The notes beneath the pieces are model-generated. The model was not told the DNA's origin and did no database searches. It worked only from the letters and a program-made list of their open reading frames with translations. From positions 434,001-498,000 of the forward strand of contig NZ_CAAGSW010000002.1 in assembly GCF_900774055.1 (NCBI RefSeq): 64,000 nt of DNA, written 5' to 3'. Within the stretch, counting starts at the first letter, position 1, and the number at the start of each line of letters is the position of its first letter. The position numbers and the translations under genes are program-made. Below are positions 21,375 through 57,776 of the stretch, in pieces. This DNA is from Methanococcoides sp. AM1 (GTDB lineage Archaea > Halobacteriota > Methanosarcinia > Methanosarcinales > Methanosarcinaceae).

Positions 21375-21459
21375 GCGAGGGTTGCCCAGCCAGGCCAAAG
21401 GCGATGGGCTTAGGACCCATTCTCGTAGGAGTTCGTGCGTTCGAATCGCACCCCTCGCA
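21375..21459 (+). tRNA. tRNA-Leu (TAG), intact and element-borne
   Basis: 85 bases: acceptor GCGAGGG/CCCTCGC, anticodon stem ATGGG/CCCAT with loop CTTAGGA (anticodon TAG), variable arm CTCGTAGGAG, T-arm GTGCGTTCGAATCGCAC, discriminator A, no encoded CCA. A TATA-like TTAATATG lies about 30-37 bases upstream. It sits 89 bases inside the left end of the element and differs from the split gene by paired changes in two helices. Confidence 0.95.
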
Positions 21460-21500
21460 TTCAGGTTATTTAAATTTGATAATACATTAACTACAACCGA

Positions 21501-22644: not shown

Positions 22645-22989
22645 ATGATTAATCGTGATGAAATGTCCGTTGAAGAAAGAATAGAATTTGCAAATGATCT
22701 GATCATAGTTGCAGATGAAAGAATAGAAATTGCAAATGAAATGATCGAGGCTGCAAGAGAAATGATTAACTTTGCAAATGAAAAAATAGAAATTGCAGAG
22801 CTAAAAATGAAAATTGCAAATACATTCATCCAAAAGTTAATTGCTAAAATGGAAACGGATGACGAATTACTTGAAGGATATTCCGCTACCTATGAAATTA
22901 TGGGATGTACAAAAGAGGAATGGGAAAAACTATCCTCATTATTGGATTATTGTTTATCTTGCAATACGTACAAGGTGATCCAAATATGA
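22645..22989 (+). CDS. coiled-coil protein with 14-residue repeats
   Basis: 114 residues from ATG 22645, preceded by GGTGAC. Residues about 11-65 are four near-repeats of 14 residues (ERIEFANDLIIVAD, ERIEIANEMIEAAR, EMINFANEKIEIAE, LKMKIAN), which should form a long coiled coil. A globular Cys-containing tail follows. ATGA overlap with the primase gene shows tight coupling, so it may be a partner of that enzyme. No family recognised. Confidence 0.65.
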   Translation: MINRDEMSVEERIEFANDLIIVADERIEIANEMIEAAREMINFANEKIEIAELKMKIANTFIQKLIAKMETDDELLEGYSATYEIMGCTKEEWEKLSSLLDYCLSCNTYKVIQI

Positions 22990-25022
22990 CTGATAATCCG
23001 AAATCTGAACCCGTTGATGAAAAAGAATTTACGGATCTCGCCAAAAACCCGCAAATTAATAATGCTGCAAAAGGAAGTAAGCCAGAAGATGGATATAAAG
23101 ATATCGGAGATCCTAAAAAAACCGATGTTTCAGCATCTTTCATGCTTAAAACAAGCAACTCTGACTTGCAATTTGTGATTGGATATGATGGCAAAAATTT
23201 CCAATTCTATGCAAAATACAAGGATGAACTTCATCCATCCTTTGTCAAAATCAAAGCCGATGATCTCTTTTCATATAATAAAAAGAGAACCATGGACGTT
23301 GCTAACTATATAGCACAAATTACTGAAGGAAACATAGAAGGAAGAAATGCGAAGTCAATTGCTGATGTATTAATGAATAAACTCGGTAATGAACATATCG
23401 ATAATCTTAATGAACTCATTAAAGCATATAATAAGAGGCATCAAAGATCCCTTCATGATAAAGGTAGCAATATCGATATAAAGCCCTTCTGTAAACATCA
23501 CCAGCTGGAAGAAACTCTTGGAAAGAAGATGTTAGAAACTGGAATTAATATTGTAAACGATGGTGCTACGGAAGATTATGTTGCCAGTTCGCTTGAAGAA
23601 AAGTACAAAGTATCTTCAGAAGCCGCATTTGAACTTGCTGACATATTAATGGATATGAGGTATGCTGAAATAATAAACAGCAAACCATCCGAATATTTTT
23701 TGGATGAAAAAAAGAACATCGATGTTCCATTATTGGCATCTGACATTAGGAAATTTTATAGATTCCTAACTGTTGGCAAGAGTGGTAAGAAAGACATCTA
23801 CGTCTACAGGAATGGTGTTTATGTCAATGACGGTGTTGAAGTTATAAGGTGGATGGTCAACAGGTTATTACAAAAATATGTCAAAGAAAAGGATCGTTCA
23901 GAAGCCCTAAGATTCATTGAGGATGAAACTCAAATAGAAAGATCCGAATTAAACAATGATGCACATCTTATAAACCTCACCAATGGACTTTATGACATAA
24001 ATAATGGGCAATTCATACCGCATACACCCGATGTGTATTCTACAATTCGAATTCCAGTAAAATATAACCCCGATGCAGATTGTCCAATGGTTAAGAAGTT
24101 CATGTCCGAAGTCGTTTCTGAAGAAGATGCTCAAACTCTTATTGAATATTCCGGATACTGCCTGATACCAGATACAAAATTGCAAAAAGCATTGATGTTA
24201 TACGGAAATGGAAGGAATGGTAAATCTATATTCCTTCTATTCCTGGAAGATTTTATCGGAGAACATAACATCAGCGGGGTATCACTTCAAAAGCTTGATA
24301 AGGATAAATTCTCTGTTGCCAGACTATTCGGAAAATTGGTGAACATATCGCCTGATATTCCATCACATAGGATTTATTCAGACTCTACTTTCAAAATGCT
24401 AGTTGGTGGAGACAAGATACATGGGGAACAGAAATACAAGGATTCCTTCGAATTCGAAAATACAGCACGATTAATTTTCAGTGCCAACAATCTGCCCCCA
24501 ATTGAAGATGGAACCTATGCGTATTACCGACGGTGGCTCTTAATCCCATTCCCAAATACTTTTGATGGAAAAAAGGAAGATAAAAATTTGCTTCAGAAAT
24601 TATGCACTCCTGAAGAGATGTCGGGATTCTTGAATCTTGCACTTGAAGGTTTACACCGAATACTTAAGAATAACAAGTTTACCTATGAAAAATCCCCCGA
24701 AGATATTGAAAAAACATATCGAGCAAATATAAATTCAGTGGAAACTTTCCTTGAAGATTGCGTTGTGTTCGGTTCCAATGGGTTAATATCAAAGCAGGAA
24801 ATGTATGAAAAATTTAAGGAATGGTGCACCGATAACTGTGCAATACCCATTAAATATAATGCATTTTGCAAAAAGTTGAAAAATGAAGGGGTGCAGGATC
24901 ATCGTATTAATGATGATTCTGGAAACAAGGTATCATATTGGACTTCTGTCAGCTTTAAAGGTGTCAACATTTCACAAATGTCCACCCCGAAAAAGCTAAA
25001 CTTAAAAATTTGCCAGAATTAA
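22986..25022 (+). CDS. P4/D5-type primase-helicase
   Basis: 678 residues from ATG 22986, which has GGTGATC upstream. The SF3 helicase core has Walker A GNGRNGKS (about 405), NISPDIP (about 447) and FSANNLPP (about 495), followed by a D5 C-terminal winged helix. The large N-terminal part may hold primase activity, but I see no clear catalytic primase motif there. This enzyme type starts plasmid, virus and satellite replication. It ends the operon; the terminator overlaps its stop. Confidence 0.88.
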   Translation: MTDNPKSEPVDEKEFTDLAKNPQINNAAKGSKPEDGYKDIGDPKKTDVSASFMLKTSNSDLQFVIGYDGKNFQFYAKYKDELHPSFVKIKADDLFSYNKKRTMDVANYIAQITEGNIEGRNAKSIADVLMNKLGNEHIDNLNELIKAYNKRHQRSLHDKGSNIDIKPFCKHHQLEETLGKKMLETGINIVNDGATEDYVASSLEEKYKVSSEAAFELADILMDMRYAEIINSKPSEYFLDEKKNIDVPLLASDIRKFYRFLTVGKSGKKDIYVYRNGVYVNDGVEVIRWMVNRLLQKYVKEKDRSEALRFIEDETQIERSELNNDAHLINLTNGLYDINNGQFIPHTPDVYSTIRIPVKYNPDADCPMVKKFMSEVVSEEDAQTLIEYSGYCLIPDTKLQKALMLYGNGRNGKSIFLLFLEDFIGEHNISGVSLQKLDKDKFSVARLFGKLVNISPDIPSHRIYSDSTFKMLVGGDKIHGEQKYKDSFEFENTARLIFSANNLPPIEDGTYAYYRRWLLIPFPNTFDGKKEDKNLLQKLCTPEEMSGFLNLALEGLHRILKNNKFTYEKSPEDIEKTYRANINSVETFLEDCVVFGSNGLISKQEMYEKFKEWCTDNCAIPIKYNAFCKKLKNEGVQDHRINDDSGNKVSYWTSVSFKGVNISQMSTPKKLNLKICQN

Positions 25023-31439: not shown

Positions 31440-31447
31440 GTGATCAA

Positions 31448-31645
31448 ATGAGTTCTGCAAATTTTGAACCTCTGGAATCATTCATAAATTCAATAATTGG
31501 TATTGTTTCGCTATTAATTATTGCAATACTTTTAGCCGTATTTCTTGCAATATATCAGTATTTGAACATGGATGTAACTTTCATTATACCTTTACTTGAA
31601 GCAATAAATTCAGTTATTAACAGTCTTCAATCATTATTTGGTTAA
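31448..31645 (+). CDS. small membrane protein, 65 residues
   Basis: One long hydrophobic helix (about 16-38, IIGIVSLLIIAILLAVFLAIY) and a second amphipathic or hydrophobic stretch (about 45-65). Preceded by AGTGATCAA at usual ribosome-site distance. It follows the 41-residue frame by 8 bases and closes the ABC-3C operon. No family recognised. Confidence 0.6.
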   Translation: MSSANFEPLESFINSIIGIVSLLIIAILLAVFLAIYQYLNMDVTFIIPLLEAINSVINSLQSLFG

Positions 31646-31692
31646 GGTAAGTTCAAAATAAATTATTCTTAGAATCAGAGATTGATATTCTT

Positions 31693-31893
31693 ATCCTGTC
31701 CAGTACCCTGTCCGCAGAATATCGCCATCAATAGGCACTGTTGGACAGGATGCAGGATAAAGCCCATATTGTAATCTCCACAGGAATATTTTCTCAAAAT
31801 TTTTCTATAATAATCTACAATATGGCTTTTTTTCTCATCCTGTCCAGTAGATTAAGATTATTCAAATTTAATCAGGACAGGTTGTTGGACAGG
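31693..31893. repeat. cluster of CCTGTCC/GGACAGG heptamers
   Basis: In the 639-bp gap 31646-32284 the heptamer occurs six times: forward at 31695, 31707 and 31839; reverse at 31743, 31875 and 31887. ATCCTGTCCAGTA is a perfect 13-bp repeat (31693 and 31837). ATCCTGTCC (31693-31701) can pair with GGACAGGAT (31743-31751). It looks like iterons of an origin or a multi-site operator. The rest of the gap is AT-rich with no gene. Confidence 0.6.
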
Positions 31894-32284
31894 TTACTAC
31901 AAAGTTCAAAATAAAAAATTTACAGCATATCAAATAAGTTTATATAGTGTCAAATTAATTCTATATTATCATATTTATCTCCTATTTTTTCTCTTTTTCA
32001 GAACGAAGTCCATTTAAAATTAATTAATGCTGAAACACTTCGCTTAAACCTTATTTTAAACCTTCCTAAAGGCATTGCATTGCAAATCATACATTTCCAT
32101 TTACTCATTGTTTTCTACTCTCAAACAGGCTGAGATTCACTCTGAGATACATTCAAAGCTATACTTAGTCCTCTTCAGAAGCTGCACCGAAGCTTCCAGA
32201 ATACAGTCCAAAACGAATGTTTATATAAATAAATCGTAAAAAATATTATTAGGTCTACACTATGTGCAGCCCTAGGAGAAATTA

Positions 32285-33178
32285 ATGAAAAAGTACAATG
32301 ATAATTCACTTAAAAGTCAAATACTGAATGCGGTTCATAAGCTTGGAGATAATGCAATTTCCAGGAAGATACGTGAGTTAATCGAATACAAAGGTTCCAA
32401 CTCCAACTTCAAGTCGGAAATCTATGCCCTTAAACGCAGGGGATACCTTAGCTTCGCTCCTGAATCAAAGGACAGAAAGGTAAAACAATACATTCTGACA
32501 AAAAAAGGAAAATTCCATCGGTTGCAGCCGGACTATTATCAAAGAATGAAGGTACAAAAACTCAATGCAACAGTCCATGGAATACTCAACGATGATGAAA
32601 AATTCACAGCAGCAGTCGATAGTGAAGTTGATAATAGAATGGAAATTATCGAGAAAAATGTTGAAAGCATTATAACCGGTAGTGCGAATAATTTCAGTGA
32701 ACCCACTTCAAAAGGTGAAATGACTGTAGCGAATATAATCGCAAAGAAAGATAAAGAAATAAAAACTTGGCAATCTCGTTATTTCAATCAGGTCAATTCA
32801 CGTCCTGTCGAAAGTAAAATCAATAAAACTACACAGCGAACTGCTAAGAAGAATACTGATGAAAAAAGAATTGAGGACAGGAAAAAACTTGCCAACCATT
32901 ATTATCAGAAGAAGTTATGGCTGGATTTTGAATTTTTCTCACAATGGAAGAATATGGTTCCAGTGCTTCTTAGCGGAAAGAAATTCCTGAACAAGAGAAG
33001 CGTTGAAATTATGTCAATTGATGAAGCCAAGCGGGAGATGGATAGAGGGCATACCAGAGCAATATTGCAGTCCAATGATGAGATTCTAGCTTGTTGTTTC
33101 CGGATTGATAAAATAAATAAAGATGGGATAGTCGTCAAGAGCGATAGATTGGATTTGAAGAAGAATATGAAATGGTAA
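32285..33178 (+). CDS. winged-helix DNA-binding protein
   Basis: 297 residues. The N-terminal 75 residues look like a winged helix (LKSQILNAVHKLGDNAIS, FKSEIYALKRRGYLSF, then KQYILTKKGKFHRL). A charged middle and a C-terminal domain (about 215-297, YYQKKLWLDFEFFSQW and DEILACCFRIDKINKDG) have no known match. AGGAGA lies 8 bases before the ATG. It follows the heptamer cluster, so it could be the protein that binds there, as initiator or regulator. Family unknown. Confidence 0.6.
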   Translation: MKKYNDNSLKSQILNAVHKLGDNAISRKIRELIEYKGSNSNFKSEIYALKRRGYLSFAPESKDRKVKQYILTKKGKFHRLQPDYYQRMKVQKLNATVHGILNDDEKFTAAVDSEVDNRMEIIEKNVESIITGSANNFSEPTSKGEMTVANIIAKKDKEIKTWQSRYFNQVNSRPVESKINKTTQRTAKKNTDEKRIEDRKKLANHYYQKKLWLDFEFFSQWKNMVPVLLSGKKFLNKRSVEIMSIDEAKREMDRGHTRAILQSNDEILACCFRIDKINKDGIVVKSDRLDLKKNMKW

Positions 33179-33292
33179 AATTGTATGTGGCATCCATCAA
33201 GTTCTGACTAGCATTTGATAAATGAAAACTCTATAAAATATTAATGCGGGTGCTGATTAAATTTTTATAGAGCAGGATGCTCTTAATCTATA

Positions 33293-34984
33293 ATGTCTAT
33301 GAAGAATTTTTATTGCGTCATTTGTGGTTCTGAACTTGAAGACCGTGGACATACGTGTTCCAACAAATGCCACTTAGCATTAATGGATTTTAAAGGGAGT
33401 TACAAAGAATATTTACCGAATGGATATTGTAATTTTTGTGGTAAACCCCATAGCCTAACAAAAAACCTTAGCCATAAAAATATGATACTCCTTCGACACC
33501 CTGAATGCTATTCTTCTTCATTTGCCAAGCAATTTTGTGATAAAAATAAGGTCGCTAAAGTAATGACAAAAGACATAGACACAAATAAAGAATTCAGATT
33601 AGCATCAGGAGAAAAGGTATATGATACTCTCACTGGGCTTTTAATGTGTCCAAAATGTAAAAATTATTCTCTTGAATATAATGATTGGAAAAAAGAATGG
33701 ATTTGTAAATTATGCGGAACGAATTCTAATAAATCATTAATAATTAATTGGTATGCATTCAATTTAAAAGACAATGACAAATATATGATATACAAGAATC
33801 ACGGCATTGAAGCACTTTCTGAAATTACGAAAAAACCTGTGGGCAAAATTGAACTTTTTATATCATCATATTTTGAGAATTGTTGTACTTCAAAGGGAGA
33901 AAAATGTCCATATCATACTTTTTTTGATGTACCTGATAATTATGAAGCAGCTAAAATCAGTCACTTGTTCTATGACATGAGAAATAAATATGTTCGATTA
34001 TTGACTGCCACCAATATGCTTAAACATGGGATAAAAGAATCTGAAAAACGTTTCAAAATAAATGATTTAATCATCCTCGAGTTCTTTAAAAGTGAACTAG
34101 AGGAATTATATGAAACGATACTCCAATCAATTAATAGAATGCACGATTATATGATTGGATTTGCGGACGATGACATAATAAGAAACCAATGTGTTTATTA
34201 TTCTGAAATAAATCCAAATATCATATACGTAACCGGCAAAGAAGAAAATGCATGTTATGCTTGGAATGATGCAATAAAAGGGCAGTTGGTTGGTGTATTT
34301 GGATTACCTATTAGTGCAATTATGGATTTTGCCCATAGTATTACTGAAACTTACATGGCATTTCAATTATTTTTGGAAAAGCAACCACATGCGAAGTTAA
34401 AATCCGAAAAAATAGAACCTATTGAAAAGAAGGTTTTGAATTTAATAAAATCTGAAAAAGGCATTTATCAAATGGATGTGTGGAGAACATTGGGAATGGA
34501 CTACCGAGAGTGCTCAAGAATTGTGACAAAATTATTGAGTAAAAATTTAATTAAAAGAGAGAAAGCTCCATCAAATGTATTAGCTACCTACAAATTATTA
34601 CCAAAATCTACAATTCATAAATCTGAATCAGCAGAAGATTTTCTGAAACAATATTATGTGGAACTGGACGACCTTATTAATTATGATTTTAAGGAGCCTG
34701 AATTATGGTATTGGACATTTAAAGAATCCTATGACCAAGATATCGTTTTTACAAATTTTGGCAATCCTGATTTGCAGTATAAGAAGGATATGCAAGAATT
34801 TGTAGAAAGCTTGCAAAAAGAGAAGCTTCCTTTCGAAATATTAGAGTCATTACATATTAGCTCAAGGGTGGTAAAAATTAATAATATTACATATTATGAA
34901 ATTACGAATGAAGACCTTATTGAAATATATGAGGAAGATGGATATTTCATCGATATGATTCATGCAAATATCATAATAAATTAA
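33293..34984 (+). CDS. multi-zinc-ribbon protein with winged-helix domain
   Basis: 563 residues. Several Cys pairs lie in the first 155 residues: CVICGSE with CSNKCH, CNFCGK, CPKC with CKLCG, enough for about three zinc sites. A mid region has a further CC/CPYH group. Residues about 375-440 look like a MarR or AsnC-type winged helix (EKKVLNLIKSEKGIYQMDVWRTLGM). The C-terminal part has no recognised motif. A TATA-like box (TTTTTATAG near 33262) close to the ATG suggests a leaderless transcript. Probably a nucleic-acid binding protein; function unknown. Confidence 0.6.
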   Translation: MSMKNFYCVICGSELEDRGHTCSNKCHLALMDFKGSYKEYLPNGYCNFCGKPHSLTKNLSHKNMILLRHPECYSSSFAKQFCDKNKVAKVMTKDIDTNKEFRLASGEKVYDTLTGLLMCPKCKNYSLEYNDWKKEWICKLCGTNSNKSLIINWYAFNLKDNDKYMIYKNHGIEALSEITKKPVGKIELFISSYFENCCTSKGEKCPYHTFFDVPDNYEAAKISHLFYDMRNKYVRLLTATNMLKHGIKESEKRFKINDLIILEFFKSELEELYETILQSINRMHDYMIGFADDDIIRNQCVYYSEINPNIIYVTGKEENACYAWNDAIKGQLVGVFGLPISAIMDFAHSITETYMAFQLFLEKQPHAKLKSEKIEPIEKKVLNLIKSEKGIYQMDVWRTLGMDYRECSRIVTKLLSKNLIKREKAPSNVLATYKLLPKSTIHKSESAEDFLKQYYVELDDLINYDFKEPELWYWTFKESYDQDIVFTNFGNPDLQYKKDMQEFVESLQKEKLPFEILESLHISSRVVKINNITYYEITNEDLIEIYEEDGYFIDMIHANIIIN

Positions 34985-35094
34985 AGATGTAATGATTGGA
35001 AGGTCATGTTCTGAGATTAATATTTTACGTATTATACCCATCCTTTTTTAATATCTTTTACAATCAGAGTTCCTGAATTTCTATTTCTTGAATC

Positions 35095-36453
35095 CTACGT
35101 AATGGGGTTAAATGATGAGGTATGTCTTTTTGGATAAAATCTTGGTTCTTCATCCGTTACAATTTTTATCCTTCCCTGAACCCATTTTTGTATCCTTAGT
35201 TTATTATCATTATCATGTTCAATTATTTCGCAATCAAAATTTGACATTTTGAAACGTTTCATATCGCTGACAAATATTTGATACTCAGCAAGAATTGTTA
35301 CTTTTTGTTCATTATAGTCTTTGAAACTACAATCATCAATATTTCGATTGGACTCTCTTATTTGAATTTCATTCCACAACAACTTGTTCAAACTTTGACG
35401 GGATTTTGGAATATTTGGTTTTGGATTTTCTTTTGTTTGGTTATTGGTATGGACATCTGTAATATGCTGTTGCAAAAGAATTTCGGTAGGGAAATTTTGA
35501 CCACAATATTTACAAATTTTATAAGTATGTATCTTTTTGATATGTTTATTCAAACTCTTTTTTGATTGGAACATTTCTCCACAGCATTTGCATGTGACAT
35601 GCATTTCTTTAATATGCTTTTCCAAACCATTTATTGATTGGAAAAATTTTCCACAGCATTTGCATATGAAGTGGGTGTCTTTGACATGTTTTTTAAAACT
35701 CTTTTTTGATTGGAAAATTTCTCCACAGCATTTGCATGTGACATGCATTTCTTTAATATGCTTTTCCAAACCATTTATTGATTGGAAAATTTCTCCACAG
35801 CATTTGCAAGTATGCACGTCTTTAATATGCTGTTTTAAACTAATATCAGATTGGAACTCTTTATCACAATATTTGCAAGTATGCACGTCTTTAATATGTT
35901 GTTCTAACAGAATTTCTGATTGGAACTCTTTATCACAATATTTGCATATGATGTGGGCATCTTTAATATGCTGTTGCAAAAGAATTTCAGTAGGGAAATT
36001 TTGACCACAATAGTTGCAGTGGTAATGCACATTTTTAAGATGCTTTTTCAAACTTTTCATTGATTGGAAGTATTCACCACAGTATTTGCAGCTGTTATGC
36101 ACGTCTTTAATATGCTGTTCCAACAGAATTTCTGATTGGAACTCTTTATCACAATATTTGCATATGATGTGGGCATCTTCAATATGCTGCTTCAAAAGAA
36201 TTTTTGATTGGAACTTTTCATCACAATATTTGCAAATATAAGTATTCAGCATTTCATCGGAATATACTATATGCTTTCCTTCATCCTCTCCATGAATTGT
36301 TGGTAGTGGAGTTTTTACAGTTGATGAGGATTTAGCTTTAATAAAATCAAGTTCACCTTCATCTTTCACTTCAGTAACGTATACAGAAGTCATACAATTG
36401 CTGCAAAATTCATTAAATCCAACAGTTTTTCCACAACTTCTACATATCAACAT
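35095..36453 (-). CDS. polydactyl C2H2 zinc-finger protein (11 tandem fingers)
   Basis: 452 residues. A zinc ribbon (Cys 4, 7, 17, 20) starts the protein. From about residue 74 to 335 there are eleven consecutive fingers of the form C-x2-C-x12-H-x4-H (examples CKYCDEKFQ to HIEDAH; CNYCGQNFP to HIKDAH), joined by only one to four residues and without the TGEKP linker of eukaryotic proteins. The C-terminal 110 residues are not recognised. Arrays of this length are a eukaryotic hallmark and rare in archaea. DNA binding is likely, target unknown. The + strand shows near-identical repeats of fingers. Confidence 0.85.
   Translation of the reverse strand: MLICRSCGKTVGFNEFCSNCMTSVYVTEVKDEGELDFIKAKSSSTVKTPLPTIHGEDEGKHIVYSDEMLNTYICKYCDEKFQSKILLKQHIEDAHIICKYCDKEFQSEILLEQHIKDVHNSCKYCGEYFQSMKSLKKHLKNVHYHCNYCGQNFPTEILLQQHIKDAHIICKYCDKEFQSEILLEQHIKDVHTCKYCDKEFQSDISLKQHIKDVHTCKCCGEIFQSINGLEKHIKEMHVTCKCCGEIFQSKKSFKKHVKDTHFICKCCGKFFQSINGLEKHIKEMHVTCKCCGEMFQSKKSLNKHIKKIHTYKICKYCGQNFPTEILLQQHITDVHTNNQTKENPKPNIPKSRQSLNKLLWNEIQIRESNRNIDDCSFKDYNEQKVTILAEYQIFVSDMKRFKMSNFDCEIIEHDNDNKLRIQKWVQGRIKIVTDEEPRFYPKRHTSSFNPIT
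35564..35789 (-). repeat. two-finger duplication, 144-bp period
   Basis: A stretch of more than 60 nearly identical bases around CCACAGCATTTGCATGTGAC (from 35579) recurs from 35723, exactly 144 bases or two 24-codon fingers later. Another long match links the finger at about 35455 with that at about 35958. It shows recent expansion of the array. Confidence 0.75.
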
Positions 36454-36588
36454 ACAATTGCTTTAATTATTAAATATATATAAGCATGCCTAAAATTAAT
36501 TTATATTTAATATGTTAGGAATATATTGCTAAATTTAATGCTATCGGAATTATAAGTTCTTAAATAAAATAAATCTTTAATTTAATTT

Positions 36589-37137
36589 ATGGATAAAGAA
36601 AACCGTTCATATCTGAAAATCAAAAGAGAGCACTTACAAAAACTAAGACACATAACGGTTAAAGACCAAGATTCTTTTTTTTCAAGATATCCAAAATATA
36701 ATTTATTTCGTGAAAAGATTTACTGTATTCTTTTAGTTCAAGGTGCAGCTTTGCATTATGTTAATGGAATTAATGGGATTAAAGATTTTGATGTCCTAGT
36801 ATTATACAAAGAAAATGGCAATAAATATGATGAAGATGGCAAGTTGATACGAATTTATCCAAAAAGAGTATGTTCTTATGATTGTGAGATGGCAGAATTT
36901 GGTCGGTATCCAAATGATGATATTGATAAATATCCCAATCGTAGAGTTGATGTTTTAATGAGAGAAATTGGAAATGATTTAACAGATAATTCTGATTTGA
37001 TTACAGCAATTAATAAATATTTTGAAAATGGCACTACCCAGTCTATAAAAGAATGGAGAAAAAAGGCTGTAGTCGGAATATGGCCAGATGAGATTCAAAG
37101 CAAAGTGATGTGGCATAAAGAACTCATACTTGATTAA
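36589..37137 (+). CDS. nucleotidyltransferase-like protein
   Basis: 182 residues. A nucleotidyltransferase core is suggested by QGAALHYVNGING, then IKDFDVLVLY (paired acidic residues) and a third Asp in NRRVDVLM. No HEPN or other partner domain is fused. The transcript may be leaderless. It could be the catalytic part of a toxin or modifying system such as MNT or AbiEii-type proteins, but no antitoxin is seen next to it. Moderate certainty for the fold, low for the role. Confidence 0.55.
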   Translation: MDKENRSYLKIKREHLQKLRHITVKDQDSFFSRYPKYNLFREKIYCILLVQGAALHYVNGINGIKDFDVLVLYKENGNKYDEDGKLIRIYPKRVCSYDCEMAEFGRYPNDDIDKYPNRRVDVLMREIGNDLTDNSDLITAINKYFENGTTQSIKEWRKKAVVGIWPDEIQSKVMWHKELILD

Positions 37138-37249
37138 TTACGAGAATGCTGTGTCTTTAATAGAATGCTGTTCGATACCCTCAACTTAGTCATTTAATTT
37201 AAATATGAAGATAACTTCTATACAATTCTGATAAATGAGGTGAATTATT

Positions 37250-37924
37250 ATGGACTATTTTTGCTCAAAGTGCAAAGAAGCGATTACATCTAAAGAATAT
37301 GATTATTCTATGAACAAATACAATTGTGCTTTATGCCGAGAACATCAAAAAAGTTTCTCCAGCACAAATAATCCAACAATAAAATCTAATAATAATTCAA
37401 TTTCTGAAGAACCTACTAAAAAAGATTCCCAGAGCGGTCTATCCAAGAGGGAACATTATTACAAAGAGAGCATGATTAAAGGCAGGATTGCAGAAACTCT
37501 TATTGAAGAATTGTTTTTGTCTTTAGATTATTCTGTTTTCAGGTACGGTATGGAAAACACTGTGCCCGGAATAATGAATCTTTTAAAGGGAGTCAGAAGT
37601 GATGTGGCTACAAACATCAGGCGTATGCCAGATTTCGTGATTCAAAATAACAAAGGGGAAGTCTTTTTTATTGAAGTGAAATTCAGAAAAAGCGAAGAAT
37701 TTAAATTCAAAGATTTACCCAAAGATTATCCATATGAAAACTGTTATTTTGTTGTCGTTTCAAAGAAGCACATAAAATGCATCTCATATGAAGAACTTAA
37801 AAATGGTAAAGAAATAACTCCAAAATGTCATAATTATTTGGGCAATAGAAAGGAGTTTGAATTGGATAAAGATGTGATTGTTGATTTCTGTAATTTTGCA
37901 GTGAAGTTCTTTGATTCAGTATGA
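37250..37924 (+). CDS. PD-(D/E)XK nuclease-like protein with zinc ribbon
   Basis: 224 residues. An N-terminal ribbon (CSKCKE and CALCRE) precedes a Ser-rich linker. From about 85, GRIAETLIEELFLSLDYSVF, RMPDFVIQNN and VFFIEVKFRKS give the E, PD and ExK residues of a restriction-like nuclease. GAGGTGA lies before the ATG. It ends 9 bases into the convergent BglII-like gene. Confidence 0.7.
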   Translation: MDYFCSKCKEAITSKEYDYSMNKYNCALCREHQKSFSSTNNPTIKSNNNSISEEPTKKDSQSGLSKREHYYKESMIKGRIAETLIEELFLSLDYSVFRYGMENTVPGIMNLLKGVRSDVATNIRRMPDFVIQNNKGEVFFIEVKFRKSEEFKFKDLPKDYPYENCYFVVVSKKHIKCISYEELKNGKEITPKCHNYLGNRKEFELDKDVIVDFCNFAVKFFDSV

Positions 37925-38428
37925 GTTATTTTCTGGTAGTAATCCCAACAATAGTATAGGAACTGGAATCGGCAATAATTTGAAATATCGATATGCAAAA
38001 TCAAATTCTGCCATGTTGCTAACACTCGATGGTCTTGTTGGAAAGAACTCTTTTGGGGTAGTTGGAACAATCAGCACCGCAAGTGAAAGCAAGTTTTTTG
38101 TTAATCCATAATGGAATTTGTAGTAATCACGGTAGATAGTGGCACTGTTTCCAAACTGAACTTCTATGAATACATCATCCTTTTGAAAATCTCCTATCAG
38201 CTTCGGATTATCGTGGAGTAATGGTTTCTTTTGCCAATCAGATTTTGAAAATTCAGCTTCAAATGCCTTGTTATATGCTGTTTGATGTTGGAATGTATTA
38301 TTGCCAACTTCAATTTCAAATTCAGGTTTCCACTCTATAGCATCAATGCAATCAAATATCTCATGGACTTCATCGACATTGCGTAGAAGCTTAGGACTGC
38401 AAAAGAAATATTCTTCCTTAAATTTCAT
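37916..38428 (-). CDS. BglII/BstYI-family restriction endonuclease-like protein
   Basis: 170 residues, shorter than BglII itself. The segment LIGDFQKDDVFIEVQFGNS followed by IYRDYYKFHYGL matches the active-site region of this family (Asp, then E-V-Q). LAVLIVPT is also typical. No DNA methyltransferase for such a site lies beside it. Its ATG overlaps the stop of the upstream membrane protein (ATGA), so it is the last gene of an operon of four. A lone nuclease like this may target invading DNA. Confidence 0.7.
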   Translation of the reverse strand: MKFKEEYFFCSPKLLRNVDEVHEIFDCIDAIEWKPEFEIEVGNNTFQHQTAYNKAFEAEFSKSDWQKKPLLHDNPKLIGDFQKDDVFIEVQFGNSATIYRDYYKFHYGLTKNLLSLAVLIVPTTPKEFFPTRPSSVSNMAEFDFAYRYFKLLPIPVPILLLGLLPENNSY

Positions 38429-39003
38429 GAATTAGCCTTCCATTCAACCTTTTCAAGCATCTCCCCAATTTCCCTTCCAATATTCATAAGTTCACGATGT
38501 CTTCTTTCATCTCTAGAATAATGTTGCTCTGTTGAAGTCCATATAACAGCAACGTTTCCTATCACAATTTTTCTTGCAATATTCCCTAAATAGTTATGAG
38601 AATTGGTTACAACAACACGATTACCTTTATCGCTAAATCTAATTCCACCAGACTTCTCAAAACCTGATTTTCCATTCTTAGCGTAAAAACCGTTCTTTTC
38701 AGAAAATTTAATAACATCATTAATATTATATTTGCATGTTTCAGCTTTACATGTTTCAGTTTTATCGATTTTAGAATCTGTAAAAATAATTGCATCTATA
38801 ATCCCAATTGCTACCAATGCCGTCACTCCAAACAGCATACATACAAAGGAGCCAAACAAAAAACCTGCTGTTTCATAGTAAGTACCATAACTTTTTGCAT
38901 CTATTAAATATAATATAATATTGCCCAAAACGAAACTATAACACGCAAATTTAGTGACAACAAGTTCATCCTCATTTCCAAGACCTAATTTTTCATATAT
39001 CAT
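38425..39003 (-). CDS. membrane protein with cytoplasmic tail
   Basis: 192 residues with two helices (about 20-40, LGNIILYLID; about 45-75, FLFGSFVCMLFGVTALVAIGIIDAIIF) and a C-terminal hydrophilic domain that contains TCKAETCKYN and ends EKVEWKANS. No family known. ATGA-coupled to the BglII-like gene. It may anchor or sense for the operon. Confidence 0.55.
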   Translation of the reverse strand: MIYEKLGLGNEDELVVTKFACYSFVLGNIILYLIDAKSYGTYYETAGFLFGSFVCMLFGVTALVAIGIIDAIIFTDSKIDKTETCKAETCKYNINDVIKFSEKNGFYAKNGKSGFEKSGGIRFSDKGNRVVVTNSHNYLGNIARKIVIGNVAVIWTSTEQHYSRDERRHRELMNIGREIGEMLEKVEWKANS

Positions 39004-39071
39004 TTTTTCATTGTCCTTTTATGATTCATCGCTCCATCATCTTTTTCACAACAAACTTCCATGCCATTACC

Positions 39072-39545
39072 TCATTCCTTCAAGACATACTTATTTGTCA
39101 GACGTTTTGCTTCATCAAGTCCTCTCGTAAGGTAAACAGCACCAAATAATGCTTCAAATACTTCAGCATTAGGCGTTACATCATCCATTTCAAATGTTTG
39201 ATTCTGAATGTCCATATATTCGAGAACTTTTAATTTTATGGCAATTGGTGCAAAGTTCTCATCCTGTTCAATGCCAAGTGTTGTTTCTGTACCTTTTGCA
39301 GTATCAGAGAGCTGACCCTTTGTCCAATCTGGATGTTGCTTATAGAGGTGTTCACGGATAATCAAACGAAGAACAGAATCACCTATGAATGCAAGCCGTT
39401 GATTGTGATTTACTAATGAATTGTTGCTGCTATGAGTAAGTGCAAGCTTGTACATCTCCAATTCATCATCTGTGAATTCGAATTCATTATCCAGAAATTT
39501 GTACATGAATTTGATAACTTGTTCCACGATATCGCTCTCATTCAC
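39072..39545 (-). CDS. RNase III-like domain protein, altered active site
   Basis: 157 residues, no dsRNA-binding domain. The fold is clear: ALTHSSNN, NQRLAFIGDSVLRLI, KGQLSD, and AEVFEALFGAVYLTRGL. Compared with the E-x-x-E-F-x-G-D signature, the key Glu is Ala (LAF), while Asp of IGD stays; in the second motif, the usual Asp is Glu and the last Glu remains. It may bind but not cut dsRNA. ATGA overlap with the PLD gene. Confidence 0.75.
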   Translation of the reverse strand: MNESDIVEQVIKFMYKFLDNEFEFTDDELEMYKLALTHSSNNSLVNHNQRLAFIGDSVLRLIIREHLYKQHPDWTKGQLSDTAKGTETTLGIEQDENFAPIAIKLKVLEYMDIQNQTFEMDDVTPNAEVFEALFGAVYLTRGLDEAKRLTNKYVLKE

Positions 39546-40984
39546 TTACATTCATAATTATTCCTCAATTCATCGATTTCATCAACAATTTTGAAATACT
39601 TTAAGTCATTAAATATTTTCTTAGCCTTCTTTAGATGATGGCATGTTTCAACATTCCAATTATAAGAATTGGCAATATCTATCCTTACACTTCCTTCCCA
39701 ATATTTAGATTTTAATTTATTTTTTGCTATTGAAAGTGCATGATTCAAATGCTTATTAATTTCAATTTCGTGACCATTGATATTATGTTTTAGCTTGTTC
39801 TCTACTTTGTAAGCTGCTGCAATATTGCAATTGTTTATCGTAGAATTCCAATCTTCTGCTAATAAATCCATTTTTTTATAATTAATAATTGCATTGGAGA
39901 TATGCACTATTGCTAAAGACTTATTGTTTTTTAATTTGTATTCTGCTGATGAATGATATGCAGAACCAACATTGTAATAGTTAGTATATTCTAATTTCAT
40001 AGCATCTGATTCATAAATATGAATAAATTCATCACATTTTTTGTTTATTTCATCTAATTTAATTCTTGAATCAATGGAACAAACTAACACATCAAGAAGG
40101 AGAATATCATCTTTCAATATTTTTGCTAACTTTTCTGCTTCATCAATAGGTTTTTGAGCATTTTCAAACATATACATACGGGAATATGACTTTGAAATAC
40201 CAATTAAACTGTGAATTTTTTTGAGAGTGAAATGATTGTATCCCTCTTCGATTTTAACCAGTTTGCTAAATATCTCGTATGATTTTTGATATGAATGTAA
40301 AGCTCCTTCAATATCTCCCATTTCGTATAAATTTTGGCCTTCATTGAGCAATGATTCCGCTTCCTCCCACAATTTAGTGTTATCATCATTTAAGCTTTCA
40401 GAATCAACTTTTGAGTTGAGGTACTCATTTAATTTCATTGTAGCTTCTTTGTTTTTTTCATTAGCTTTGTCCCTATCATCTTCGTTCATAGTTTTGTTTT
40501 CACTATATAGCTTAATGATTTCATCATCCAAAAGCACACTTTCTGAGTCTAATTGTTTAAAATATTCAATTGCATTTTTTATTGGGGATTCAGATGCCTT
40601 GCCAGTGAACATTAAATTAGCTTCATAATTTGTAGAGAAACCACCTTCACTTAAGTTCGAAGAACCAACAATTATAGTAGCATTGTCATCTTCGTTCTCG
40701 AAAATATACAATTTTGGATGAAAATTAGTTCCATGTACAATACTGCAATTTATTCCTAAATCTAATAGTTCACGAAGAGCTTCAACATCAGTAATCGAAA
40801 AATCCAGACCCGTAATGATAGAAATTTTAGTATCAGTATTTTCTTTAATACTTTGTTTAATTAAATCCAGTCCTGAATTTTTCAGAAATGCTACAGCAAT
40901 TGAAACTTTATCACTTGAATCAAATAGCTCTGGGATTTCATTATTAAGGTCGTTTGATATTGAATCAATGAATTTGATTGTCAT
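39542..40984 (-). CDS. PLD-type nuclease domain fused to TPR-like repeats
   Basis: 480 residues. The N-terminal 165 residues carry a phospholipase D-like active site (FHPKLYIF near 85, GSSNLSEGG near 105, then NYEANL), as in restriction enzymes such as BfiI and NgoFVII. From about 190 on the protein is helical with TPR-like pairs (QNLYEMGDIEGALHSYQKSYEIF). GGAG lies 8 bases before the ATG. First gene of a four-gene operon. Sensor and nuclease in one protein is the simplest reading. Confidence 0.7.
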   Translation of the reverse strand: MTIKFIDSISNDLNNEIPELFDSSDKVSIAVAFLKNSGLDLIKQSIKENTDTKISIITGLDFSITDVEALRELLDLGINCSIVHGTNFHPKLYIFENEDDNATIIVGSSNLSEGGFSTNYEANLMFTGKASESPIKNAIEYFKQLDSESVLLDDEIIKLYSENKTMNEDDRDKANEKNKEATMKLNEYLNSKVDSESLNDDNTKLWEEAESLLNEGQNLYEMGDIEGALHSYQKSYEIFSKLVKIEEGYNHFTLKKIHSLIGISKSYSRMYMFENAQKPIDEAEKLAKILKDDILLLDVLVCSIDSRIKLDEINKKCDEFIHIYESDAMKLEYTNYYNVGSAYHSSAEYKLKNNKSLAIVHISNAIINYKKMDLLAEDWNSTINNCNIAAAYKVENKLKHNINGHEIEINKHLNHALSIAKNKLKSKYWEGSVRIDIANSYNWNVETCHHLKKAKKIFNDLKYFKIVDEIDELRNNYECK

Positions 40985-41319
40985 TTAATGTTCTCCAATT
41001 CCATAAATGATTTGTTAGAAATACAGCATCCACACTTCAAAGTTGATATTAAGAGCATATTTTTAAATGCATATATACTTTTTTATATTTTTTTATGTAT
41101 GTACTAATTCCTGTACTAATTTTATTTTTTCTTAACGGATGTTTGAAAGCCAGTATTTTTCAATCACATAATATAGGTGTTTGCCGCCTTCATCACCTTA
41201 AGATAAAAAGAATACATTTATTTTAAAATCTTTAAGGTTGCATTTTAAAATAAAATAAATGATTATTAATAGTTTCAAGACACACTAACAACAGTAAAAT
41301 TATATTTTGATGTGTAAAT
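40985..41319. promoter_or_regulatory. 335-bp divergent control region
   Basis: AT-rich, no gene. TGTACTAATT occurs twice, at 41100-41109 and 41112-41121, resembling half of the 22341-22358 palindrome. AATTATATTTTG (near 41298) may be the TATA box of the gene at 41320. Confidence 0.45.
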
Positions 41320-42345
41320 ATGCAACTAAAATCACTCTACATGCCAGACAGTATTATCCAAAATGATGAATTTCCAGCCCATGTTACTTGGAACAAGAAT
41401 GATAATTTAGAGATAACTGTAATTTTGCCAGAAACAATTGAAATTAAAGAAGTGTATAATGTACCTTCCGAATATATTGAAAATTTAGAATCGTCTTCTG
41501 CGAAGTTTGATGAATTTGAAGTAAATGGATATTTAGGCTTTGTTTTTAAGACACGATTGTTGAATGAATCAAAATCAATTGAAGATGTAGAATTTATTAT
41601 TAAAGATTTGGATACTTCAAAAACAAAACGTTTTGTCAAACAAATACAGTTGTTCAGACCAGCAATAGAGTTAATCAAAACACCATCAAATATTGTAATA
41701 AAACATGATTCTGAGGATAATTTAATTATTGATGAAAAAATTCACCTTAAAAATTATGGAAATGGAACTGCTTTAATCTCGGTGAAGATAGATTCTGAAG
41801 ATGGATTTAATATGGCAGTTCCTCATGAGATTGATGATTTCAACACAAAAGTACTACATACATTTGAAACTGAGCTAGAGGGTCTGAAATCAGATTATCC
41901 AGAACATTCTTCTCTTCTTGATGACTTTTATTCTTTGCTCAAGGAACCAATATCTCTAGACAAAGACACTAAAGCGAAAATTGAATCTATTGAATCAAAT
42001 TTTGTATCAATATTTGAAGAAAACGAAAAATTCCATGAAGGTTTCTCATTGTGTATCTGGAATGCCTACATAAAAAATGTTCAACTTGTTACTAAAATAG
42101 AAAGCTTCATGAGTTATCTTAATTCCGTAGGTAAAAATAAAATATTATTGCTCAATTCGATTGAACTTTTAAAATGCGAAAAAATGGAAGGGAATATAAA
42201 ACTATTGATAGAAATAACTGACCTCAATTATAACGATTATCCAACAATAGAAATCCCTAGTATAGCTATCAATTGTGAAAAGGAATGCAAAGTTCCAATA
42301 TACTCTTTGTTTGAATGGAATGGTGAATCAGGAGCAGGTGAGTAA
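41320..42345 (+). CDS. unrecognised protein, 341 residues
   Basis: Mostly beta-rich with repeated immunoglobulin-like-looking strands in the first 180 residues (EFPAHVTWNKNDNLEITVIL, IKEVYNVPSEYIEN), then a helical part (about 190-290) with acidic residues, and a final strand segment. No catalytic motif, Cys cluster or membrane helix. The stop abuts the ATG of the next gene, so the two products probably work together. Confidence 0.6.
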   Translation: MQLKSLYMPDSIIQNDEFPAHVTWNKNDNLEITVILPETIEIKEVYNVPSEYIENLESSSAKFDEFEVNGYLGFVFKTRLLNESKSIEDVEFIIKDLDTSKTKRFVKQIQLFRPAIELIKTPSNIVIKHDSEDNLIIDEKIHLKNYGNGTALISVKIDSEDGFNMAVPHEIDDFNTKVLHTFETELEGLKSDYPEHSSLLDDFYSLLKEPISLDKDTKAKIESIESNFVSIFEENEKFHEGFSLCIWNAYIKNVQLVTKIESFMSYLNSVGKNKILLLNSIELLKCEKMEGNIKLLIEITDLNYNDYPTIEIPSIAINCEKECKVPIYSLFEWNGESGAGE

Positions 42346-43284
42346 ATGTCTTATGAATTGGCACAAAAATTAACGGACCATGCATTAAAAAATGCTTCAA
42401 AAGTATACGACACAATAAGGGGCTCATACAATGTATTCCCACCAGAGATTGTAATTTATTGCCCTGAAAATATCCAAAAATATTCCATTGTTTTCGAAGC
42501 AAAGGGTGGATTTCTACCTAAAAAAATTAAGTTCCCATATGGAGCTGCACGTAGAATCAAACTGAGACCACTTCGTGGATTAACAGATTTATCAGATGCA
42601 GTCGTTCGGACAACAGATGGATTTGAGCTAAAAACAAAATCAATGGAATCTGAAGATACTTTCATATTGGACTTGGAATACGATATCCAAGACCCTAACT
42701 ATATAACTTCTTTAGTTGAGCGACATCATGCAAAAGAAATTCCGAGTACAGATAGTCATGAATATTGGATGCATGCTGAATTAAAACATCCGAAAGTACT
42801 AAAGACAAAATATGGAAAGCTTGAGTTGCAAGATATTGATTTTAACGTTGACGTTGGCATAAGTGGTGATATAAATACTGTAATCCCAGATGCATTCAAA
42901 AAAGAACTACAAATTGGGGTTGAGATTTTAAAAGAAACAGACCCTCACCGATTCCACCAACTTGGTGTAGAGAAAATACAAGCAATGCGTTCTAGGGGTA
43001 AGAAGAAAACAGCTGTTGAAGCTCTGGGTGCACTTCAAGAAGTTTTCATACCACAATCATTCTGCAAATATATAGACGTGGAAAAAGATTTTCATTATTC
43101 TGACTGCTTAAGGGGAAATAAATGTCATGACACCGTTCCATGGAATTTAACTTGGCCTAAAACAATGAAGGTCATATCAAGAACAGACTTAAACCTTGAT
43201 AATTTTGCAGCTGAAGGTATTGTGAAATACAATAGACGGAATTTTGTCGATGAGGTCGGAAAAATTGTAGGATATAAAAAATAA
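42346..43284 (+). CDS. unrecognised protein, 312 residues
   Basis: Begins MSYELAQKLTDHALKNASK. The ATG follows TAA directly, with GGAGCAGGTGAG as ribosome site inside the upstream gene. There is a His/Cys-containing C-terminal part (QSFCKYIDVEKDFHYSDC, NKCHDTVPW) and a Lys/Arg run (RSRGKKKT). No family recognised. Tight pairing with the 341-residue protein suggests a two-component unit in this defence-rich stretch. Confidence 0.6.
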   Translation: MSYELAQKLTDHALKNASKVYDTIRGSYNVFPPEIVIYCPENIQKYSIVFEAKGGFLPKKIKFPYGAARRIKLRPLRGLTDLSDAVVRTTDGFELKTKSMESEDTFILDLEYDIQDPNYITSLVERHHAKEIPSTDSHEYWMHAELKHPKVLKTKYGKLELQDIDFNVDVGISGDINTVIPDAFKKELQIGVEILKETDPHRFHQLGVEKIQAMRSRGKKKTAVEALGALQEVFIPQSFCKYIDVEKDFHYSDCLRGNKCHDTVPWNLTWPKTMKVISRTDLNLDNFAAEGIVKYNRRNFVDEVGKIVGYKK

Positions 43285-43407
43285 TATATCCTTCTAATTT
43301 TTTACATTTTTCTGAAATTGTTATTCCATTTGCATCTAATATCTTTCAGCTATTTTACATTTAAATAATAATGTATATATATAAATTCAAAGTTATTAAC
43401 TTTTTAT

Positions 43408-44052
43408 ATGAATGTAAAAAGTAAAGTAAAAGCTGGACTCTACATCAGGACATCTACTGATAATCAGAGTGAATCGATAGAATTACAGAAAAAAGAATTA
43501 AAAAAATACTGTCAAGCTAAAGGATACGAAATCGTTGAAACGTATATTGATTTCGGTTTCAGCGGTAAGAATACAGAGCGTCCTGCATTTCAGAATATGA
43601 TACAAGGTGCAGAAATTGGTAAATTTCAAATTCTACTTGTAACCAAGATTGACCGTTTTGCAAGGTCGATTATTGATTGTCTTATTAATGTTGAAAAACT
43701 GGAATCGTATGGAGTTGCATTTGCAGCAACAAGCCAACCTATTGATACATCGTCAGCTATGGGCAAACTTACACTTCAGATTATGGCCTGCTTTGCGGAA
43801 TTTGAACGTTCCATCATAAATGAAAGAATGAAGGCTGGAAGAAAAGCTGCTGAGCAAAGAGGTGTTGTTTGTCATCGACCAAGGAAAGATATTCCCCAAA
43901 GGAAGCTTGAAGAACTTGTTGGGAAAGGATTATCTGCCAATGCATGCGGTAAATTCTTTGGAGTAACTGCTTCGACTATTACACATCGATTGCTTGAATA
44001 TGGATATGTTTATGAAAACGGAGAGTGGATGAAAAGCTCAGATTCCTTGTAA
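43408..44052 (+). CDS. serine recombinase (resolvase/invertase family)
   Basis: 214 residues. The catalytic domain is complete: Ser in YIRTSTDNQ, YIDFGFSGKN, LLVTKIDRFARS and MACFAEFERSIINERMKAG. A C-terminal helix-turn-helix (SANACGKFFGVTASTITHRL) binds the site. TATATATATAAA lies about 25 bases before the ATG, so the transcript is probably leaderless. In elements such proteins resolve dimers or invert segments. No crossover site was identified. Confidence 0.9.
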   Translation: MNVKSKVKAGLYIRTSTDNQSESIELQKKELKKYCQAKGYEIVETYIDFGFSGKNTERPAFQNMIQGAEIGKFQILLVTKIDRFARSIIDCLINVEKLESYGVAFAATSQPIDTSSAMGKLTLQIMACFAEFERSIINERMKAGRKAAEQRGVVCHRPRKDIPQRKLEELVGKGLSANACGKFFGVTASTITHRLLEYGYVYENGEWMKSSDSL

Positions 44053-44192
44053 TCTAAGTATTTTTGATTTATTCAGGATGAATCATAGCAGTATGATAAT
44101 CATTGCGAAGTATTATGCAAGATTTTGCTGGATATTGAAAGGGATTTGAGTTACAGCATATGGGAAGTATGATAGTTAGAATGATAAAATCA

Positions 44193-44627
44193 TCATATCC
44201 CTTCATCAATGAACCACTTTCTTATGGCATCCTTCGGTTTATCAAAGCCAGCATCTAAAAAAATAGCACCTGCAATCGCTTCAAGCGTTTCAGCTAACAC
44301 ATGATCACTATTGCCATGATTTTGAATTATTTGGCCTTTTCCTAATCTTAGAAAAGGTTCGATCTTAAGTTTACGGGCAGCATTTGAAAGTCCTTTCTTT
44401 TTCTCAAGTTTAATACGTGCAGGAGTTATTGTCCCCCCACTTCTTTTCCCAGATCCCATTAACATCTCTGTTAAGGCAAGCTTTATTACAACATCTCCAA
44501 CTGTTCGAAATTCATTTTGATCCTTGCATAGATGTTCATTTGAATATGCTCGTGTCGTAAGTGCTTGGATTAATAGTTCTTTATTACTGAAATGGTATCC
44601 AAGAATTTCTTCTATATTGCCCGTCAT
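44193..44627 (-). CDS. second RNase III-like domain protein
   Basis: 144 residues, no dsRNA-binding domain. LGYHFSNKELLIQALTTRAYSNE and QNEFRTVGDVVIKLA are the first half, AETLEAIAGAIFLDAGFDKPKDAI the second. At the key Glu of the signature there is Arg, while the Gly-Asp is kept; in motif 2 the Asp is Glu and Glu is kept. GGTGATG precedes the ATG. It differs from the one at 39072 and is not a recent copy. rRNA-processing-like members exist in methanogens; function here is unclear. Confidence 0.75.
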   Translation of the reverse strand: MTGNIEEILGYHFSNKELLIQALTTRAYSNEHLCKDQNEFRTVGDVVIKLALTEMLMGSGKRSGGTITPARIKLEKKKGLSNAARKLKIEPFLRLGKGQIIQNHGNSDHVLAETLEAIAGAIFLDAGFDKPKDAIRKWFIDEGI

Positions 44628-56538: not shown

Positions 56539-57660
56539 TCAATCTTTCTTTTGCAAATCTTCAAATATCTTTCGAGCTTCTTCATTCTGCATAAATTGCA
56601 CCAATAATTCTGACATTTTACCTTCATATTGTTCAAGATCCATGGCTGTTAAATCATCCAACACCAATGAACAATGTGAGCAATATTTTGCATCACATGG
56701 ATTTTTATTATGACATCTTGGACATTCGATAGGTGTAAGTGTTTTATTTTCTTCGGGCTTTTTAGTATCAGTTTCAATGCCATGAATTGACAATATTTTA
56801 TCATCAACATCTTTACCGCTAATATGCAAATATATTTCTGGCATCTTTGAGCTTCGTTCCCAACCTGCAAAAACACGCATATCCATTTCACCAAGACCAC
56901 GTTTTGCCATTTCAGTTAATCTACCATGCCTAAATGAATGAGGATTTACTCGTTTATTCACTCCTGCATTATTGGCACGGTCTTTCAACATATTTTGTAT
57001 TCTTCTAATACTAATGCGTTGAAATTCTCCGTTTGTCTTTCGTTCCACAACAAATAATGGTTTATCTGGATTGTCTCGATAAGGATGTTGATTTAACCAC
57101 AATTTGATTTCAGGCTCGGCATTAATTAATCTTATACGCCTTTCACCTGTCTTACCATTGACAGTAATAGCAGCACCATATTGGTCAAATACCACATCAC
57201 CAACATTAAGCCGAATCAGCTCTTCAATTCTTGCGGCACTGTCATATAATATAGCAATAATTGTTCTATCTCTTTGTGTTTTACAAGCAGCGAGAAGTTT
57301 TTTGATATCCTTTGGATCTAATGGATTATTTGTTGGGACTGTTTTTCTTTTTGGTGGAACTTCTATGTTCTCAAAGAAGCTATTTTCTGGTTTTAACCAG
57401 TTAAAAAAAGGTCGTAACTCTTTGATGTCGTTTTCGTATGTTCTTTCAGATTTGTCTTTTCGCCTTTCAAGTAGATATTTTTCAATATCTTCTTTTACAA
57501 CTGTATTTAAGTCAATGTCGTCATTATTTATTAGAAATGTATATATTTTCCACAATTTTGTATTTATTGTGCTTTCTTTCCGACCTTTTAAATTTAAATG
57601 TTCTGTATAGTTTTCTATAATCTCAGCATTTCTGCCTGTATATTTGGGGGGGTGTTTCAT
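56539..57660 (-). CDS. tyrosine integrase with C-terminal zinc ribbon
   Basis: 373 residues. Catalytic Arg in DSAARIEELIRL, HSFRHGRL box (His and Arg) and Tyr in EIYLH are visible; the N-terminal arm is a SAM-like domain. After the catalytic domain comes a zinc ribbon, CPRCHNK with CSHCSLV, and a helical tail. TATATAAAT on the minus strand (about 57686-57694) lies too near ATG 57681 but fits a leaderless start at ATG 57660. It sits beside attR, as expected for the enzyme that inserted the element. Confidence 0.92.
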   Translation of the reverse strand: MKHPPKYTGRNAEIIENYTEHLNLKGRKESTINTKLWKIYTFLINNDDIDLNTVVKEDIEKYLLERRKDKSERTYENDIKELRPFFNWLKPENSFFENIEVPPKRKTVPTNNPLDPKDIKKLLAACKTQRDRTIIAILYDSAARIEELIRLNVGDVVFDQYGAAITVNGKTGERRIRLINAEPEIKLWLNQHPYRDNPDKPLFVVERKTNGEFQRISIRRIQNMLKDRANNAGVNKRVNPHSFRHGRLTEMAKRGLGEMDMRVFAGWERSSKMPEIYLHISGKDVDDKILSIHGIETDTKKPEENKTLTPIECPRCHNKNPCDAKYCSHCSLVLDDLTAMDLEQYEGKMSELLVQFMQNEEARKIFEDLQKKD

Positions 57661-57721
57661 GCATCTATGTATGGTATTCATTCTATTTATATACTCGCAA
57701 TTAAAGCGAAGCCCTGTAAAT

Positions 57722-57776
57722 AGGGCTTAGGACCCTGTCTCGTAGGAGTTCGTGCGTTCGAATCGCACCCCCCGCA
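57722..57776 (+). pseudogene. 3' half of the split tRNA-Leu (TAG) gene and right att core
   Basis: After the core AGGGCTTAGGA (57722-57732) come CCCTG, a variable arm, GTGCGTTCGAATCGCAC and CCCCCGC plus A. CCCTG and CCCCCGC pair perfectly with the halves at 21246-21286 but not with tRNA-Leu 21375-21459. AGCCCT-6-AGGGCT (57710-57727) forms an inverted repeat at the junction. Confidence 0.9.

Follow-up and report, generated by a model that had tools for sequence, protein, structure and literature searches.

Long tandem arrays of C2H2 zinc fingers are treated as a hallmark of eukaryotes, and a gene encoding one lies on the minus strand of the DNA analysed here, a 64,000-nucleotide stretch of Methanococcoides sp. 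AM1 hereafter called the window. An earlier, model-written reading of its letters (the sequence-only reading) had placed the gene in an archaeal mobile element, and had suggested that its product could read a long DNA site, bind RNA or proteins, or counter host defences. The questions raised by this locus are whether the array is genuine, where the protein ends, what carries the gene, and what the product might do; the features bearing on them are collected in Table 1.

Table 1. Positions of the finger gene, its parts, its neighbours and the borders of its carrier element in the window.
Feature	Coordinates	Strand	Evidence
attL, the 3' part of tRNA-Leu (gene 21374-21460)	21406..21460	+	
D5-type primase-helicase of the element	22905..25022	+	PF19263, D5_N, PHROG DNA primase
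GATC-free block, 12,861 bp, holding the finger and restriction endonuclease (RE) genes	31442..44303	.	39 sites expected
Winged-helix-like gene, left edge of cargo slot	32285..33178	+	weak HTH match; homologue in G024 element
Poly-C2H2 gene, probable full frame, 473 aa	35032..36453	-	TAG at codon 453
C-terminal domain, predicted mixed alpha/beta, residues 336-473	35035..35448	-	
In-frame TAG at codon 453, with a conserved tail behind it	35095..35097	-	same position and tail in G018
Eleven tandem C2H2 fingers, residues 74-335	35449..36234	-	built of 72-nt repeats, some duplicated in blocks
N-terminal CxxC...CxxC module, residues 1-21, probable zinc ribbon	36391..36453	-	
ORF between finger and RE genes, nucleotidyltransferase-like by eye	36589..37137	+	no Pfam match
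VRR-NUC-like ORF between finger and RE genes	37250..37924	+	weak PF08774, E=0.0098, below cut-off
BglII/BstYI-type restriction endonuclease gene, 170 aa	37916..38428	-	PF09195, E=8.6e-10, over cut-off; counterparts in M. alaskense and G018 96% identical
Serine recombinase, right edge of cargo slot	43408..44052	+	83% identical to copy in GATC-free G024 element
Tyrosine integrase of the element	56539..57681	-	PF00589, E=3.8e-21
attR, 55-bp copy of the tRNA-Leu 3' part	57723..57777	+	95% identical

The finger array

The sequence-only reading had described eleven C-x2-C-x12-H-x4-H units in a row, and all eleven were recovered, with 44 of 44 metal ligands intact and the classical F-x5-L core in every finger, one of them carrying Phe in place of Leu. 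Very short linkers and a lack of TGEKP, also claimed, were borne out by a listing across the eleven fingers, in which the linkers (II, NS, YH, II, T, T, VT, FI, VT and TYKI) span one to four residues. Pfam matches were correspondingly strong (zf-C2H2_4, E=8e-37 over 11 stretches; PF00096, E=4e-31), and AlphaFold2, answering the structure prediction proposed as a check, modelled the eleven as distinct beta-beta-alpha units (block pLDDT of about 57-87, lowest towards the last fingers). We infer that the array is occupied by zinc.

The DNA encoding the array is a 72-nt tandem repeat in which blocks of two or three fingers have been duplicated, such that finger pairs 2/5 and 7/9 are 97% identical. 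Across 780 finger pairs from five family members, metal and core codons gave a pN/pS of 0.03, the remaining framework 0.63, and helix positions 2, 3 and 6 about 1.06. Given these ratios, the fingers are maintained as such, and it is the exposed residues of their helices that drift or diversify; strong diversifying selection on the contact residues was rejected, as the ratio lies near 1 and not clearly above it. The array is not a product of chance, and its metal-binding frame is under constraint.

In spacing, F-x5-L core, predicted beta-beta-alpha fold and tandem layout the units resemble the classical C2H2 finger (PF00096 / PF13894), and the fingers themselves are of a known kind. They differ from it in having mostly one or two residues between the last His and the next Cys in place of TGEKP-(F/Y)-x, a uniform H-x4-H, and a Ser nearly fixed at helix position -1 (36 of 40 fingers). 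Positions 2 and 3 are often Ile or Leu, and 2, 3 and 6 vary. The arrays of the close family are mildly basic (net charge of +0.9 per finger, pI 8.6-9.4), and those of distant relatives are near-neutral. The best Foldseek matches of the array were the DNA-bound arrays of ZFP568, CTCF and TFIIIA; superposition on DNA-bound arrays was poor (rmsd of about 14-34 A), although the inter-finger geometry of the model is unreliable. Because Ser is nearly fixed at -1, Ile and Leu are common at positions 2 and 3, linkers of the classical type are absent and charge is low, base reading in the eukaryotic manner seems doubtful. Eukaryotic poly-finger factors (ZFP568, CTCF, TFIIIA, PRDM9) likewise have long arrays whose length changes through finger duplication, but their TGEKP-type linkers and diverse -1 contact residues are not found here, and in place of a KRAB, BTB or SET partner the archaeal protein, borne on a mobile element, has a Cys4 module and a C-terminal domain.

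Reading frame and terminal domains

As an open frame, 35095-36453 on the minus strand encodes 452 aa, and the sequence-only reading had ended the protein there. That boundary did not hold up: the stop is a TAG, and homologous sequence continues in frame beyond it to a TAA at 35032-35034. The TAG and its tail are conserved between the window (35032-35097) and G018 (L035, 5959-6024), and a profile of the C-terminal domain passes through the TAG in both. The tails that follow, DSRNRNSGTLIVKDIKKGWV in the window and DSKNRDLGTLVVKEIKRGWV in G018, align with those of M. alaskense and G024, which run on without a stop and have GCG and TTA, respectively, in place of the TAG. Stops of this kind are rare: TAG ended one of 99 ORFs in chromosomal loci of related genomes, and three of 43 in the window, namely the finger gene, the dimethylamine methyltransferase gene mtbB and an unassigned ORF at 5026-5658. 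The source genome contains pyrrolysine machinery (pylS is present, with a PylS match of 420 bits), and mtbB (5785-7188; PF09505, E=7e-252) has an in-frame TAG at codon 356; this gene serves as an internal control for pyrrolysine decoding. Since pylS is present in the genome and a genuine pyrrolysine gene lies in the same window, the product is probably a 473-aa protein with pyrrolysine, or readthrough, at residue 453. Partial termination at this codon is a possible alternative.

Two claims about the protein's ends stood in part. The zinc ribbon proposed to precede the fingers is supported by its four cysteines, which are invariant in all five family members, and less so by its fold, which was weakly modelled (block pLDDT falling from 53 to 43 over residues 1-30). 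The trailing domain, described as unknown and of 110 residues, comprises 138 residues once the TAG is read through. Folded with the TAG as a residue, it is predicted to form a compact alpha/beta domain (pTM 0.57, core pLDDT of about 70-81) in which the post-TAG tail forms the final strand. Searches with this domain gave no Pfam match and no significant structural match (best Foldseek E of about 1; best VIA-align Z of 3.7, mostly to ferredoxin-like folds). Its only match outside the genus, an apparent leucyl-tRNA synthetase, was taken as spurious.

Carrier element, relatives and the neighbouring nuclease

The attribution to an archaeal mobile element proved sound. The finger gene is cargo of a 36.3-kb low-GC island that extends from a tRNA-Leu gene to a 55-bp copy of its 3' end and contains att repeats, an integrase and a replication gene, as expected of an integrative element. 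The island also holds a type III restriction-modification (R-M) pair, Lamassu genes at 27716-31321 (LmuA and LmuB models, separated by a small gene), and two RNase III-like genes, at 39072-39545 (PF14622, PF00636) and 44193-44627 (assigned by sequence only). A viral origin was considered and rejected: phage records yielded only weak homing-endonuclease matches; viral contigs yielded one match, to an unrelated phage fragment, and nothing when queried with the alignment or with the nuclease; and the PHROG matches of the finger protein were generic zinc-finger families.

The proposed search for relatives was fruitful, recovering close homologues from three further genomes of the genus, together with more distantly related poly-C2H2 genes elsewhere in Methanosarcinaceae. 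C2H2 matches occurred in four of 11 genomes of the genus. Close relatives share the N-terminal Cys4 module and the C-terminal domain, and differ in finger number, with 11 in the window, seven in M. alaskense, seven and 12 in the two G024 copies (the latter broken by a frameshift in its C-terminal part) and three in G018. Three elements, those of the window, M. alaskense and G024, have the gene between a winged-helix-like gene and a serine recombinase; G024 has an additional, lone copy in ordinary chromosome. Among the distant relatives, which also start with Cys4, are two small genes in a type I R-M operon (HsdM, HsdS-like, DUF262-like, HsdR) followed by a PifA-type KAP NTPase. In M. alaskense this pair (L032, 14780-15847; G016:C3, 469779-470846) lies behind HsdR with gaps of 40-46 nt, and one such operon-encoded protein has a weak match to the restriction-alleviation protein Lar (E=0.002, below cut-off). 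Two further poly-C2H2 genes in G038:C4 (L043, 7257-9641) directly follow a PLD-helicase gene and precede one for a MkoA-like helicase, and the four genes share a strand. Among 392 sampled genomes of the phylum, matches beyond Methanosarcinaceae were short stretches, mostly in small ORFs. Poly-finger genes on Salmonella and Cardinium plasmids have TGEKP-like linkers and were ruled out as close relatives. On a plasmid of Halorussus vallis (L139, 2501-3952), a thioredoxin-like/DUF3105 protein is encoded in fusion with C2H2-like fingers.

At three of five close-family loci, the window among them, the finger gene is preceded on its own strand by a BglII-type nuclease gene. In M. alaskense and G018 it is a BglII-like gene 82 nt away, and in the window two opposite-strand ORFs intervene. 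The three nucleases are 93-96% identical as proteins, and the adjoining arrays differ in finger number. Like the BglII/BstYI endonucleases (PF09195), the window's enzyme has a D-x8-E-x-Q active-site motif, which aligns with that of BstYI, and by family membership it would cut AGATCT or another site with a GATC core. It departs from them in being short, in lacking an adjacent methylase, and in being paired with a poly-finger gene. A cognate methylase beside the nuclease gene was not recognisable at the window, M. alaskense or G018 loci, and one may be encoded elsewhere in the source genome. The pairing is not universal: G024, with its two finger genes, has no BglII-type nuclease gene, and G063 has such a nuclease (79%) and no close finger gene. 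In the latter genome (G063:C8; L041, 7448-9163) the nuclease gene directly follows a Cas1 gene, and GATC sites in this region number about a third of expectation.

The DNA that carries these genes is entirely free of GATC. Besides the block in the window (Table 1), GATC was absent from 37,653 bp of the M. alaskense element (G016:C3, 447138-484791; 133 sites expected), which lacks GGCC as well, from 36,390 bp of the G024 element (G024:C11, 26873-63263; 125 expected), and from all 13,948 bp of the G018 contig (43 expected). GATC density is normal in the chromosome flanking the GATC-free elements. In the 18-kb region around the lone finger gene (G024:C8) GATC is also normal, and the gene occupies a 1.2-kb gap devoid of GATC, which would fit a recent arrival. 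Avoidance of restriction sites is a known antirestriction strategy of mobile DNA (PMC4687349). The BglII-type nuclease was rejected as sole cause of the loss: a second M. alaskense element (G016:C5, 70886-91175), integrated at the same site as that of G024, is GATC-free over 20.3 kb (66 expected), and contains neither finger nor nuclease genes. GATC loss is thus a property of the element backbone. At most other D5-primase loci sampled GATC was normal. Host DpnII restriction was not supported as the cause, DpnII being found in none of the 11 genus genomes and in four of 111 in the family; other GATC enzymes may be responsible.

Candidate functions and their meaning

Considering the recurring, often operon-like nearness to defence nucleases and helicases, the kept finger frame and the mild positive charge, we tentatively favour the finger protein as an accessory nucleic-acid-binding component of mobile restriction and defence cassettes. 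It would be a zinc-dependent protein, comprising the Cys4 module, eleven C2H2 fingers and an alpha/beta C-terminus that spans the TAG, carried as cargo by integrative elements of Methanococcoides and its relatives. Its partner in the island would be the BglII-type endonuclease, with which it may cooperate. The array may be a DNA binder whose sequence preference is modest or repetitive, and could either bring in or retain the nuclease or govern its expression or activity. Against such a partnership stand the two of five close members, both in G024, that lack the nuclease gene, and the G063 nuclease that lacks a close finger gene; nearness within defence-rich islands may reflect shared transfer alone. 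A more ambitious proposal, which we consider unlikely as a whole, is that tandem C2H2 arrays in Methanosarcinaceae are interchangeable DNA-binding modules of mobile restriction and defence enzymes (BglII-type, type I R-M and PLD-helicase), and that the arrays change in length via duplication. Under this proposal, the GATC-purged block would be protected by the absence of sites, allowing a nuclease without an adjacent methylase to reside on such DNA with no need for methylation.

Two serious rivals contend with the accessory role. A scaffold that binds a structured RNA, or a partner such as a host transcription or translation factor or another defence protein, is rather unlikely in our estimation; it would be consistent with the hydrophobic residues at helix positions 2 and 3, the near-neutral arrays of distant relatives, the two RNase III-like genes of the island, and the presence among the Pfam matches of PF12171, the dsRNA-binding JAZ finger. 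However, the JAZ match is one of many generic C2H2 matches, and no RNA-related partner recurs among the relatives. The other rival, a transcription factor of the element or host whose array would bind double-stranded DNA sequence-specifically and repress or activate element genes, with no part in restriction, we also hold to be unlikely. The Foldseek matches to ZFP568, CTCF and TFIIIA speak for it, as does variation between fingers at the contact positions in excess of that in the framework, but the missing TGEKP, the near-fixed Ser and the low charge are not those of such a factor, and a target site would shift each time that array length and order changed, as they have between close relatives.

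Counter-defence or restriction control, in which the array would inhibit or moderate the nuclease of its neighbour or host, and shield DNA without a methylase, is decidedly unlikely. The suggestion that the protein counters host defences found no direct support, and the recurring neighbours are restriction and defence enzymes. In its favour are the missing adjacent methylase in a window with 68 RGATCY sites (about the expected number), the absence of a PF02086 methylase from the source genome, and the weak Lar match of a short distant finger protein. Yet that match is below cut-off and in another protein, PF01555 methylases present in the source genome could protect its DNA, and the neighbouring enzyme may not be active as a nuclease. 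Least credible is an expanding, functionless 72-nt repeat in decay: recent block duplications, near-identical fingers and the frameshifted G024 copy are what a selfish repeat might leave behind, but the intact ligands, the kept frame, the constraint on metal and core codons and the tail conserved past the TAG largely refute it.

Among known archaeal proteins, AFV1p06 and B-129 (PDB 2wbt) share a C2H2-type fold and an origin in archaeal elements. AFV1p06 binds DNA and has a single finger with Glu as fourth ligand (PMC3541406), whereas the present protein has 11 fingers, all C2H2; B-129 has 129 aa, matches over 68 residues only, and is not a long array. Nearer in layout are METEV_RS11795 of the Methanohalobium evestigatum plasmid pMETEV01 and other methanosarcinaceal genes, plasmid- or island-borne with a Cys4 start and C2H2 fingers, although their fingers are fewer or irregularly spaced and they lack such a C-terminal domain. 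The archaeal C2H2 proteins described in the papers searched are very small or have a single finger (PMC3541406, PMC6562870). In the literature searched, which left most subscription journals outside, we found neither this architecture, an archaeal array of this length, the pairing with restriction genes nor the TAG-containing C-terminal domain, and no description of a role as nucleic-acid-binding helper of DNA-cutting defence systems.

A family of three to 12 fingers, expanding and contracting through finger duplication within archaeal mobile elements, offers a prokaryotic parallel to the evolution of poly-finger genes. With its conserved TAG tail, the finger protein is a candidate for pyrrolysine use beyond methylamine metabolism, and the recurrence of restriction enzymes beside it provides a testable function. 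The total absence of GATC from the elements that carry it points strongly to restriction pressure on DNA in these methanogens.
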